From Planctomycetota bacterium (lineage in GTDB: Bacteria; Planctomycetota; Planctomycetia; Pirellulales; Thermoguttaceae), in contig JAJYGU010000452.1 of the NCBI GenBank assembly GCA_021784975.1, forward strand, positions 1 to 36,824: a stretch of DNA of 36,824 bases, read 5' to 3'. Below the pieces are notes generated by a model. The model was not told the DNA's origin and searched no databases. It saw nothing but the letters and a program-made list of their open reading frames with translations. Position numbers and translations under genes: made by a program. Below are positions 1 through 4,415 of the stretch, piece by piece (position 1 is the stretch's first letter; every line of letters starts with the position of its first letter).

Positions 1-414
1 CGGGTGGGCAGAGTGTTTCCGGTCGTCGATGCGGCGACCAGTCGGACTTTCGCCACACACGGGGCGGGGGTTGTAATCCACAAGATCAGCGAGCGGGCTG
101 GCGTGGTGGTCGGCCAGACGGAAAAGCTGGTCGAGGAAGACGGCAAGCGGGTCAAGAAGACCGTCAAGCTGTTCGCGGGTGCCCATGACCTCCGGCGGGC
201 GTTTTGCTCCCGGTGGGCGAAGAAGGTCATGCCAGCCGTCCTACAGCGGTTGGCGCGTCATGCCAACGTCGCTACCACGATGGCCTACTACGTGTCCTTG
301 ACGGCCGATGAGATTGGGGCCGACTTGTGGGCCACCCATGCGACGGGCAAAAACCAAGAAGGTAACATTTTTGGTAACATTCGCCGAAAAACGGCCCGAC
401 GGACAAAGAAGTGA
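1..414 (+). CDS. Tyrosine recombinase (phage-type integrase), C-terminal part, cut by the window edge
   Basis: This is the C-terminal end of a tyrosine site-specific recombinase, which cuts and rejoins DNA through a covalent phosphotyrosine. The reading frame is open to base 1, so the gene starts outside the window. Visible catalytic parts are the H-x-x-R box (HDLRRAF), the following histidine (LARHANV) and the tyrosine nucleophile region (TTMAYYV). The first catalytic arginine and the N-terminal DNA-binding domain would lie upstream. About 138 residues are present against the 300-400 usual for the family. The stop lies 40 bp from the 3' end of a tRNA-Phe gene, the classic position for an integrase beside its attachment site. 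Whether the rest of the gene is intact cannot be seen. Confidence 0.85.
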   Translation, partial: RVGRVFPVVDAATSRTFATHGAGVVIHKISERAGVVVGQTEKLVEEDGKRVKKTVKLFAGAHDLRRAFCSRWAKKVMPAVLQRLARHANVATTMAYYVSLTADEIGADLWATHATGKNQEGNIFGNIRRKTARRTKK

Positions 415-454
415 ACCATGCGTAACTATTTGCGCATTCTTGTCTTACGTCGAG

Positions 455-500
455 TGGACAGGGCCGGGATTGAACCGGCGACACCTGGATTTTCAGTCCA
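455..500. other. Probable integration (att) site in the 3' half of tRNA-Phe
   Basis: Integrases of this type commonly recombine within the 3' half of a tRNA gene and restore it. The integrase fragment sits directly beyond the tRNA 3' end, so the att core is expected in the T-arm/acceptor part. The second copy would lie outside the window, so neither the core nor its exact length can be defined here. Confidence 0.35.
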
Positions 501-527
501 GTGCTCTACCAACTGAGCTACCTGTCC
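455..527 (-). tRNA. tRNA-Phe (GAA anticodon)
   Basis: The reverse complement folds into a standard 73-nt cloverleaf. The acceptor strands GGACAGG and CCTGTCC pair, followed by discriminator A. The D-arm is AGCTCAGTTGGTAGAGC, the anticodon stem CTGGA/TCCAG encloses a loop with GAA, and the T-arm contains GGTTCAATCCC. The terminal CCA is not encoded, because the next bases are CTC. The 3' end faces the integrase gene at 1-414. Confidence 0.97.
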
Positions 528-1050
528 AAAGTCCTTTATTATCAAAGACTTATGGCGTTGCGTCTGAGTGCTCCCGGGCTCTTCTGCCGGCACACGATTC
601 GGATTTCGGCCAGCGATCGGAAACCCCGCTGAGTATCACATGCCAATGGCGAGGCGTCAAGCCGGTCGGGAGATTCCCCTGCCGGGACGCCGCCGACAGG
701 CAAGACCCCTGGGGCGCTGGGGCGCGAAATCCGGGAAATGATGGTGACAGGCGGGCGCATCGCGGCTACAATCGCCGCCACTTGTGCCACCATGACAAGG
801 CGGGCAGGCACCTGGCAATGGCTGCTTCCGCCGGATCGTACGCCTTTTGGCGTCGGTCGGCGGTGCGGAAGCCGGGTTATGATCGGTTGTTGGTTCAGCG
901 CCAGCCCCGTTTGGTCCAGACCCTTGGTCGAGAAAGACGCACCTCTTGCCCTCATCTTCCCAGACCTGCCAGTTGGGCGCTTCGCCGCCGGATGCCGCCG
1001 TTGCCGTAAGCACGACAATCGGGACCAGCACATCGCAGCATCACCCGCGG
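528..1050. other. Non-coding stretch between tRNA-Phe and the E1 gene
   Basis: No convincing gene is visible here. The open frames in the ORF track that cross it have unstructured, Arg/Pro-rich translations typical of high-GC shadow frames. The region should hold the leftward tRNA-Phe promoter and the rightward promoter of the E1 operon. An AT-rich stretch just upstream of the tRNA (about 530-550) is the only visible candidate. Confidence 0.5.
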
Positions 1051-3099
1051 ATGATGCCTCCACCGAGCGGGGCGGGGGGCGGGATCGCTGGCTCCGGTCG
1101 GCTTCATGGGCCCGTGCCGCGGGTGCTCTTTCCCGAGCGGCTCTCCGAGCCGGCGTTTTTCCCAGCGGCCTATCCATGGATGTATCTCTCGCGCCGCATG
1201 GAAGAGAAGCTGATGGAGCTCTTCCAGAAAGGCTATGTGAAGGGGACGGTGACATCCGGCATCGGCAACGAAGCCACCGCGCTGGGCATGACCATGCCCT
1301 TGCGGCCGGGGCAAGATGTCGTATCGCTCCTGCACCGCGACTTCGCCGGCCATCTGGTTCTGGGATCGTCGCCGTATGAGCTGTTCTGCCAATACCTGGC
1401 CAACGCCGATAGCCGGACGCACGCCCGCGAGGGCAACGTCCATCATGGCAACGCCGCCCGGCGGCGGTTTCCGATGCTCAGCCACCTGGGTAAGATGCTG
1501 AGCGTGGTGGTAGGCGGGACCTGGGCGGCCCGGCGCCAGGGCGAAGAGGTATTCGGACTGGCGGCCATCGGCGACGGCGGCACGAGCACCGGCGAGTTCC
1601 ACGAAGCGCTGAACCTGGCCTCGGTGCACGCCGTGCCGGTCGTCTTCTTGATCGAAAACAACCATTACGCCTTCTCGACGCCGACGCAACGCCAATACCG
1701 TTGCCAACGGCTTTCCGATCGGGCGGCGGGGTACGGGATCAGCGGCCGAACCATTGACGGGGCCGACGCCTGGGCGGTCTACGCCGCGGTGTGCGACGCC
1801 CTGGAGGCGATCCGCCGCGAGCCCGCGCCGACGATCATTGAGTGCATGAGCCTGCGGCTGCTCGGGCATGCCGCCTACGACAAGGGGAGCTATGTTCCGG
1901 CGGAAACCTTGGGGCAGTGGCGCGAGCGCGACCCGCTACCGGCCGCGCGGCGGAGGCTGCTGGAGTTGGGCGGCATGTCGGATGCCGCTGTGCGATCGCT
2001 GGAAGAGGAGATCGAAAAGGAGATTCGCGAAGCGCTGGCCAAAGCGTTGGCGGTCGGGCGCCCTGAGCCGAGCGAGCCGGGCGCGGCAGTGTTTGCCCGA
2101 AGGCCGCGGACGACTGTGAAGCCCTTTCACTCGCCGCCGGTGAAAAACGGCGAGGCGGTCGGTCGGGCCTTGGATTACCTGCTGGAGAACGATCCACGGG
2201 CGTTCGTGGCGGGTCTCGACGTGGGCGTCTACGGTTCGGCTTTCAAGACCTGCAAAGGCTTGCTGGAGCGTCACGGGCCGCAGCGCGTGATCGACATGCC
2301 GTTGGCGGAATCGGCGATCATGGGCTTCGCCCTGGGGGCATCGCAGCTTGGCGGGCGGCCGATCGTCGAGTTCCAGTTCGCCGATTTTTCCACCGAAGCG
2401 GTCTCGCAGCTTGGGCTCAACGCGGCCACCTGGCACTTCCGCGCCGACCGGCCGGCGCCGTTGTTGGTGCGCCTGCCCTGCGGCGGCGGGTTGACGGTGG
2501 GTGCCTTTCATTCCGGCGAGTTTGAGGGCCTGTGGTCCCGCTTTCCCGGGCTGAAGCTGCTTTATCCCGCCACCGCCCAAGAGACCTTCGAGGCCCTGGT
2601 AGCGGGATACCATGATCCCAATCCGTGCCTGGTGTTGGAACACAAGCTGCTTTACTGGAGCAAAAGCGGGCCGATTGATTTTGACGGCGACCTGGAAGCC
2701 GTGTGGCGTCCGCGCTGCTACTGCGAAGGCGGCGAAGTGACCGTGGTGGCCTTCGGCGCCATGGTCCACCAGGCGCTGGCCGTGGCTGCTCGGAGCCGTT
2801 GCTCGATTGAGGTCTGGAACCCCTTCGTGCTGCAACCCTTGGAGATCGGACCCATCTTGGAATCGGTGCAAAAGACCGGGCGATTATTGGTGGTGCAGGA
2901 ATGCGGTGCCACCCAGGGTCTGGGCGACCGCGTGATCTCGCTGGTCTGCCGCGACTGTTTTGCGTCGTTGAAGCGTCCGCCGGTATTGGTGGCAGCGCCC
3001 GACGCGCCAGTCCCCTTTGCTGCCGAGTTGGAGTCGGCGCACCGGCCCGACGGCGCGCGGATCGAGGCGGCAGTCGCCGGACTCATGGAGGGCCGATGA
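1051..3099 (+). CDS. Single-chain 2-oxoacid dehydrogenase E1 (fused alpha and beta subunits, TPP-dependent)
   Basis: This protein of about 682 residues should decarboxylate a 2-oxoacid using thiamine diphosphate and transfer the acyl group to a lipoyl arm. The N-terminal half is E1-alpha-like: the TPP/Mg motif begins GDG (about residue 174) and ends ENN (about 202-204). The C-terminal half is E1-beta-like, with MPLAESAIMGFALGAS and EFQFADF followed by the transketolase C-terminal region. In most bacteria these halves are separate proteins. The ATGATG at 1051 was chosen over the upstream ATG at 946 because the preceding residues look non-coding. GTG at 1114 or 1123 is possible, and no good ribosome-binding site separates them. 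The next gene overlaps the stop codon and supplies a lipoyl domain. Sequence alone does not decide between branched-chain 2-oxoacids, pyruvate and acetoin as substrate. Confidence 0.88.
   Translation: MMPPPSGAGGGIAGSGRLHGPVPRVLFPERLSEPAFFPAAYPWMYLSRRMEEKLMELFQKGYVKGTVTSGIGNEATALGMTMPLRPGQDVVSLLHRDFAGHLVLGSSPYELFCQYLANADSRTHAREGNVHHGNAARRRFPMLSHLGKMLSVVVGGTWAARRQGEEVFGLAAIGDGGTSTGEFHEALNLASVHAVPVVFLIENNHYAFSTPTQRQYRCQRLSDRAAGYGISGRTIDGADAWAVYAAVCDALEAIRREPAPTIIECMSLRLLGHAAYDKGSYVPAETLGQWRERDPLPAARRRLLELGGMSDAAVRSLEEEIEKEIREALAKALAVGRPEPSEPGAAVFARRPRTTVKPFHSPPVKNGEAVGRALDYLLENDPRAFVAGLDVGVYGSAFKTCKGLLERHGPQRVIDMPLAESAIMGFALGASQLGGRPIVEFQFADFSTEAVSQLGLNAATWHFRADRPAPLLVRLPCGGGLTVGAFHSGEFEGLWSRFPGLKLLYPATAQETFEALVAGYHDPNPCLVLEHKLLYWSKSGPIDFDGDLEAVWRPRCYCEGGEVTVVAFGAMVHQALAVAARSRCSIEVWNPFVLQPLEIGPILESVQKTGRLLVVQECGATQGLGDRVISLVCRDCFASLKRPPVLVAAPDAPVPFAAELESAHRPDGARIEAAVAGLMEGR
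3087..3092 (+). promoter_or_regulatory. Ribosome-binding site deciding the lipoyl-KAS III start
   Basis: GGAGGG lies inside the last codons of the E1 gene, 6-7 nt before the ATG at 3099 and only 3 nt before the ATG at 3096. The spacing favours 3099, which overlaps the E1 stop as TGATG and suggests translational coupling. Confidence 0.6.
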
Positions 3100-4415
3100 T
3101 GGACGCCGCCCTGCGCATGCCTTTGTATCTGCCGGCCCAAGGGGCCTCGGAGACCGACGCGACCATCATCGAGTGGCTGGTGGCCGAGGGCGATCACTTT
3201 CGCAAGGGGCAATCCTTGGCCCAGATCGACAGCGCCAAATCGGTCTTCGATTTCGAGGCCCCCTGCGACGGCATGGTGATCCGGCGATTTCATCTGGAAG
3301 GCGACACCCTGGCACTGACCACTCCGATCATGGAGATCGAGGCCTTCGACGCCGCCATGCGCGACTGGATTCCGCCCGCGGCAGCCAACCCGCGAGCGGC
3401 GGCGCGGCCCGAAACCGCCCCGGCGGCCGCCGATCCTGCTCCCGGCCGCGAGCCGGTGGTAATCCGCGGCGTCGGCGGCTATTTGCCGCCGCGGGTGGTC
3501 ACCAACTCCGAATTGGTGGCCGCCTTTCCCGAAATCTCGGAAGAGTACGTCTACCAGGTCACCGGCATTCGCGAGCGTCGCTGGGCCGAGGCCGATGAAA
3601 AGCCCTCCGGCATGGCCTACAAGGCGGCCTTGGAGGCGATCCGCCGCTCGGGCGTCGACAACAAGGACATCGACGCCCTGGTGCTGGCCACCACCACGCC
3701 GGACGTGGCCATGCCCTCGACCGCCGCCATCGTGCAAGACCGTTTGAACCTGCCCAGCATCCCCGCCTTCGACCTGAACGCCGCCTGCTCGGGCTGGCTG
3801 TACGCGGTCTCGGTGGCCCGCGGCCTGATCCTCGGCGGCACCGCCCGAAACGTGCTGACCATCGCGGTCGATATGCAGTCGCGGCTGATCGACCCTTCCG
3901 AGCGTAGTGCCTACCTGATCTTCGGCGACGGCGCCGGAGCGGCGATCATTTCCTCAGGCACGCTGGGGCATCCAATCCGCCACGTGCAATTGGGGGCCGA
4001 CACCCGCGGCCTGCGGATGGCCCGCCGCGAAGAGCCGGGCTACGCGGTGCGCAACGGGCATTGCCGTGTGGACCCCTGGATCCGCATCGACGGCCAGGCG
4101 ATGTTCCGTTTCGCCACCCAAGCTTTCACCAACGTCATCCGCCAGGCGATCGACCAGAGCGGCTGGACCGACGCCGAAACCCGCTGGATCATTCCCCATC
4201 AAGCCAACGGCCGAATCCTCAAGGCGGCCGCCAGGCGGAGCGGCCTGCCTTTCGACCGTTTCTTCCTGAACATCGAGCGGGTAGGCAACACCTCGAGCGC
4301 CAGCATCCCGCTGGCCTTGGTGGAAGCCGAAGAAAAGCTCCGCCCGGGCGACAAGCTGATTCTCTGCTCGGTCGGAGCCGGCTTGACCACCGCCGCCATT
4401 GCGGTCGAGTGGTAG
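3099..4415 (+). CDS. Lipoyl domain fused to 3-oxoacyl-ACP synthase III (FabH/KAS III-like)
   Basis: This protein of 438 residues has two parts. Residues 1 to about 85 form a biotinyl/lipoyl-type domain with DSAKS, so Lys47 is the predicted lipoyl-lysine; this resembles the ETDKA type of 2-oxoacid dehydrogenase E2 rather than the biotin AMKM motif. An Ala/Pro-rich linker (about 92-117) follows, then a full KAS III with the catalytic triad Cys230 (NAACSG), His367 (IIPHQAN) and Asn397 (VGNTSSAS). KAS III normally takes acyl-CoA and condenses it with malonyl-ACP. Fusion to a lipoyl domain and coupling to an E1 suggest that the acyl group is delivered on the lipoyl arm instead. No E2 acyltransferase domain is present. 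The start was chosen from the GGAGGG spacing. The domain calls are firm; the direct transfer is inferred. Confidence 0.93.
   Translation: MDAALRMPLYLPAQGASETDATIIEWLVAEGDHFRKGQSLAQIDSAKSVFDFEAPCDGMVIRRFHLEGDTLALTTPIMEIEAFDAAMRDWIPPAAANPRAAARPETAPAAADPAPGREPVVIRGVGGYLPPRVVTNSELVAAFPEISEEYVYQVTGIRERRWAEADEKPSGMAYKAALEAIRRSGVDNKDIDALVLATTTPDVAMPSTAAIVQDRLNLPSIPAFDLNAACSGWLYAVSVARGLILGGTARNVLTIAVDMQSRLIDPSERSAYLIFGDGAGAAIISSGTLGHPIRHVQLGADTRGLRMARREEPGYAVRNGHCRVDPWIRIDGQAMFRFATQAFTNVIRQAIDQSGWTDAETRWIIPHQANGRILKAAARRSGLPFDRFFLNIERVGNTSSASIPLALVEAEEKLRPGDKLILCSVGAGLTTAAIAVEW

Follow-up and report, generated by a model that had tools for sequence, protein, structure and literature searches.

What becomes of the acyl group of a 2-oxoacid dehydrogenase when the gene that follows its E1 component encodes a condensing enzyme? 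This question is raised by a stretch of 36,824 nucleotides from a Planctomycetota bacterium of the order Pirellulales (NCBI GenBank assembly GCA_021784975.1, contig JAJYGU010000452.1), hereafter called the window. On its plus strand, positions 946..3099 encode a thiamin pyrophosphate (TPP)-dependent 2-oxoacid dehydrogenase E1 with fused alpha and beta portions (Pfam E1_dh, Transket_pyr and Transketolase_C), and positions 3099..4415 encode a 438-residue protein composed of a lipoyl domain, a linker and a β-ketoacyl-acyl carrier protein (ACP) synthase III (KAS III). The true start of the E1 open reading frame is uncertain, with conservation beginning near 1177, and its stop codon (TGA, 3097-3099) shares one base with the ATG at 3099 of the second frame (TGATG), which ends with a stop at 4413-4415. 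We consider it likely that this pair is a dehydrogenase whose E2 has been replaced, and that it passes the acyl group of acyl-lipoyl directly to KAS III and from there to malonyl-ACP; the hand-over, the substrate and the product are what we infer. With slightly less assurance, we also favour the broader proposal that the pair belongs to a widespread and undescribed enzyme class in which acyl-lipoyl serves as the ketosynthase donor without acyl-coenzyme A (acyl-CoA), encoded as a single chain by many bacteria and by a pair of genes in the window's family.

The composition of the fusion protein is well supported by profile searches. Pfam recognizes Biotin_lipoyl (E=4e-10), ACP_syn_III (2e-21) and ACP_syn_III_C (3e-28), and the NCBIfam model for beta-ketoacyl-ACP synthase 3 (NF006829) scores 316 bits, above its cut-off of 249, while TIGR00747 fabH falls narrowly under its threshold (287 vs 292.1). 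The lipoyl domain spans residues 5-82 (3111..3344; PF00364) and carries the predicted lipoylation site, Lys47 (3237..3239), in a DSAKS hairpin. It is followed by an Ala/Pro-rich linker (residues 83-119; 3345..3455) and by the KAS III domain (residues 120-438; 3456..4412), which NF006829 covers and Foldseek aligns to FabH structures with a TMt of about 0.9. By comparison with Escherichia coli FabH, whose reference sequence was matched letter for letter to PDB 1HN9, the nucleophile is Cys230 (3786..3788; FabH C112) and the other catalytic residues are His367 (4197..4199; H244) and Asn397 (4287..4289; N274). These three residues and Lys47 are invariant among the 21 aligned proteins of this type, the window's included. 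A preliminary description had recognized one protein holding a lipoyl-type lysine, a linker and a complete Cys-His-Asn KAS III, and its coordinates, frame and residues all proved right.

Structure prediction agrees with this assignment. An AlphaFold2 model built from the 21-row alignment (mean pLDDT confidence score 81) contains a lipoyl beta-sandwich with strands from residue 5 to 82, places Lys47 at a hairpin formed by strands 39-45 and 49-53, between the two, and gives the synthase part a FabH-like fold; the linker is predicted to be disordered, with pLDDT below 50 at residues 94-115. A biotinyl identity for the N-terminal domain was rejected on the context of the lysine (DSAKS or EADKA) and on the E1 partner. 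Biotinyl domains carry MKM at the modified lysine, and this is not present here. For the E1, the equivalents of the catalytic histidines H271alpha and H128beta, whose roles have been described (PMC2663715), do not vary among 20 window-type and 17 single-chain proteins (the latter introduced below). The TPP motif is likewise invariant in the 20 window-type E1s, and the single-chain proteins keep it but for isolated substitutions. Among the closest structures, pyruvate dehydrogenase and branched-chain 2-oxoacid dehydrogenase (BKD) score alike and give no substrate assignment.

The arrangement is not peculiar to one contig. Full-length fusions occur in 21 of the 37 genomes of the window's Pirellulales family, with a piece at a contig edge in one more, and the 20 homologues share 46-72% identity with the window protein. 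An E1 gene lies directly upstream on the same strand, at a gap of -7 to +164 bases, in 20 of the 21 loci, and one of these E1s is cut by the end of its contig; in locus L048, the E1 frame runs up to the lipoyl-KAS gene and its stop was not recovered. The search for this architecture and its gene neighbourhood that the preliminary description had proposed found the fusion, with an E1 beside each family copy. Its concern that the fusion might be an isolated assembly artefact is excluded by these conserved homologues. More generally, chance fusion, chimerism and assembly error were rejected on the 21 full-length copies and on the single-chain homologues found elsewhere. Beyond E1, no neighbouring gene is common to all window-type loci. 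Among 392 genomes sampled evenly across the phylum, the two-gene form was seen in this family only, and in the plasmid collection no record spans 80% of the query, the matches shown aligning to the KAS III part only.

More striking still are proteins in which E1 and KAS III reside in one polypeptide. Two matches from the same order lie in frames of 1146 and 1218 residues and combine E1alpha, E1beta, lipoyl and KAS III in that order, and a survey of the phylum added four more, for six by genome search. Used as query against a collection of 84,980 prokaryote species, an alignment of these six yielded 349 relatives; the best 80 were examined, and all of these match most of 1140 residues in a single open frame of at least 1083 residues. 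All the domains were present in the five single-chain proteins tested with Pfam, for four of which the source is beyond doubt. By record, the best 80 comprise Planctomycetota (32), Spirochaetota (19), Verrucomicrobiota (18), Kiritimatiellota (4), Lentisphaerota (2) and Sumerlaeota (1), together with single genomes binned as Myxococcota and Cyanobacteriota and two as Pseudomonadota. All 80 are metagenome-assembled genomes (MAGs), and the last three assignments may reflect mis-binning. The equivalent of Lys47 (K738) is invariant in 46 aligned single-chain proteins. Across the 105 fused KAS domains (21 window-type and 84 single-chain), the equivalents of FabH C112, H244, N274 and R249 are present without exception.

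Common to the single-chain proteins is a motif resembling TREExGxPxL between the lipoyl and KAS domains (residues ~782-795 of the 1140-residue protein L027), of which 790-795 are predicted as a strand in the L027 model; it may be a docking element. Their loci have only lineage-bound neighbours, and no biosynthetic gene or dedicated carrier is conserved among them. Two such lineage-bound genes recur: a NeuB-like gene (sialic acid synthase family, by sequence only) in 12 loci including L149, and a gene resembling short-chain dehydrogenases/reductases in nine.

What place does KAS III hold in these chains? Another planctomycete family (L060, L062, L063, L064 and L065) shares the E1 lineage and the domain order of the single-chain KAS proteins, with E1alpha, E1beta and lipoyl followed by an E2 in one chain of ~1120-1190 residues. 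The C-terminal domain is here the CoA acyltransferase 2-oxoacid_dh (PF00198), as tested on L060, instead of KAS III. In the E1 tree, these E2-bearing chains are sister to the single-chain KAS proteins with a support of 97. Because the sister chains end in a lipoyl domain and an E2 catalytic domain, KAS III occupies the place of E2. PF00198 was absent from the fused KAS chains tested with Pfam and from the window proteins scanned adjoining the E1/lipoyl-KAS pair, and the PF00198 matches of the window's genome sit on other contigs, away from the pair. The earlier proposal of a coupling to E1 with no E2 alongside is thus strongly supported, both by the same domains occurring in one polypeptide in several phyla and by the related E1 proteins that bear an E2 domain where KAS III would be. 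The window-type E1s are placed apart in the tree (a single clade of both KAS-coupled types received a p-AU of 0.03, with long branches). An E1-lipoyl unit has thus acquired KAS III where E2 would stand, possibly on more than one occasion. The KAS trees, which group window-type and single-chain domains with an unstarred support of 86, do not decide between one and two origins of the fusion.

In established family chemistry, E1 acylates a lipoyl lysine, and KAS III loads an acyl group onto its cysteine and condenses it with malonyl-ACP. A 2-oxoacid dehydrogenase with a condensing enzyme substituted for its E2 acyltransferase would join these reactions. E1 with its TPP would decarboxylate a 2-oxoacid and reductively acylate the lipoyl group on Lys47, steps that are seen here as conserved motifs only. 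The lipoyl arm would then swing on the flexible linker to KAS III and hand the acyl group to Cys230, and condensation with malonyl-ACP would give a 3-oxoacyl-ACP, starting a chain of fatty acid or polyketide type without an acyl-CoA intermediate. Condensation with malonyl-ACP is proposed because the Cys-His-Asn triad is intact and the FabH Arg249 position is kept. Finally, the dihydrolipoyl arm would be reoxidized by a free E3. The nearest known counterpart is the classical route of the Bacillus type, in which the E2 of BKD makes acyl-CoA and a separate FabH uses it for branched priming (PMC6461809). There, too, an E1 decarboxylates a 2-oxoacid, the acyl group passes to lipoate, and the primer is condensed by a KAS III; the difference is that the acyl group leaves E2 as a CoA ester, whereas here there is no E2 and KAS III itself bears the lipoyl domain.

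The CoA site of the fused KAS III domains is altered. The fusion shares the fold and triad of E. coli FabH, from which it differs in its N-terminal lipoyl domain and in residues that contact CoA. In FabH, the adenine of CoA is stacked between Trp32 and Arg151, and Thr28 and Arg36 also touch the cofactor (PMC4606726). In the window protein, the segment from Tyr150 to Val154 (3546..3560) corresponds to FabH W32 to R36, and both of the CoA-contacting end residues are replaced. At the Trp32 position, all 21 window-type domains have Tyr, whereas the 84 single-chain domains all have Asp, Glu or a small residue; among free FabHs from the phylum, Trp32 is present in 45 of 49 and Arg36 in 46 of 49. Arg36 is replaced by Val in all 21 window-type domains, and Arg151 is missing from a third of these (7/21) and from 84/84 single-chain domains; Thr28 is replaced as well. 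These changes, read from sequence, are only suggestive of a changed acyl donor. They fit the direct CoA-free hand-over put forward in the preliminary description, which would be the most economical explanation of the coupled E1, lipoyl arm and KAS III. The acyl pocket offers a further hint. FabH position 87 is a bulky Phe in enzymes using acetyl-CoA and Thr in those using long primers (PMC3734052), and its equivalent is Thr or Ser in 82/84 single-chain domains and Met in 19/21 window-type domains. With Thr or Ser at this gate, the single-chain proteins may plausibly accept primers larger than acetyl. The window's genome encodes another FabH-like protein (L034; G000:C167:4484-5449), which is very divergent (KAS tree branch 2.65) and also lacks Trp32.

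Several observations weigh against the reading favoured here. Arg36 is retained in 75/84 single-chain domains and Arg151 in 14/21 window-type domains, the window's included. Trp32 is one of seven positions lost in both groups out of 81 conserved positions, and loss at the CoA site does not exceed that at the remaining positions conserved in FabH (Fisher p 0.27 in the window-type set and 1.0 in the single-chain set); since it is not enriched over general divergence, we regard this loss as compatible with a changed donor and not as proof. The lipoyl-lysine arm, at ~14 Å, is shorter than the phosphopantetheine arm, and therefore the tip of the hairpin would have to enter the mouth of the KAS tunnel. 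Moreover, the window pair has no recognizable peripheral-subunit-binding domain, and no conserved neighbour points to a product. Lastly, the window's own MAG has no lipA match over the cut-off and contains E3 as fragments only. This MAG is 89% complete in 506 contigs, and incompleteness is probably the reason for both absences; it does hold three LplA/LipB-type matches and lipoyl-domain proteins. Across the family, lipA occurs in 20 of 22 carrier genomes (three of these counts being cut or split matches) vs 8 of 15 non-carriers (Fisher p=0.017, in an unplanned test), a pattern that fits a need for lipoate in carriers.

An alternative that we regard as unlikely is that KAS III is an ordinary FabH using acyl-CoA, with the lipoyl domain merely tethering it to E1 or to another complex so that it can draw locally on the acyl-CoA that a separate E2 produces. 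Such a view could draw on the score of KAS III above the NCBIfam cut-off, on the separate E2 genes of the genome and on the Arg36 retained in most single-chain proteins. It fits poorly with the loss of Trp32 from all 105 fused domains and of Arg151 from every single-chain domain, with single-chain proteins lacking the E2 domain that their sister proteins bear, and with an invariant lipoyl lysine, which a simple tether would not need. We give slightly less credence to the notion that KAS III is a substitute for E2 and nothing else, moving the acyl group from lipoate through its cysteine to ACP or CoA with no condensation. KAS III enzymes do carry out transacylation as one half of their reaction, and the domain does hold the place of E2 in the chain; however, the His and Asn that serve decarboxylative condensation, and not transacylation, are invariant in 105/105 domains. 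Least probable of the three is that acyl-lipoyl condenses not with the malonyl-ACP used in fatty acid synthesis but with another partner, for example a second acyl chain or a dedicated carrier, and so yields a specialized metabolite. Free FabH-like proteins do also occur in these genomes, so that ordinary priming may already be covered, but neither form has conserved biosynthetic neighbours or a dedicated carrier beside it and the Arg249 position is kept throughout.

Transfer of the acyl group from acyl-lipoyl directly to KAS III would, if true, have several consequences. These bacteria would not need CoA to link a 2-oxoacid dehydrogenase to chain priming, and acyl-lipoate would have a second catalytic fate besides transfer to CoA, with the lipoyl arm able to serve a ketosynthase. 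It would also account for a protein family found throughout Planctomycetota, Verrucomicrobiota and Spirochaetota, to which curated models give only piecemeal names, and engineers of fatty acids or polyketides would gain a self-contained module for CoA-free priming. Full-text searches of 5.39 million open-access papers found no description of a lipoyl-KAS III protein. CorB, PqsC and DarB are KAS III-like enzymes that use donors other than acetyl-CoA. They share the KAS III fold with the fusion and appeared as weaker matches, none of which aligned to the lipoyl part or to an E1.

To the left of the E1 gene, the window begins with a C-terminal piece of a tyrosine recombinase (4-414, plus strand; PF00589, under the cut-off) adjoining a tRNA-Phe gene (454-527, minus strand). 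Together these probably mark where an element that integrated at the tRNA ends.

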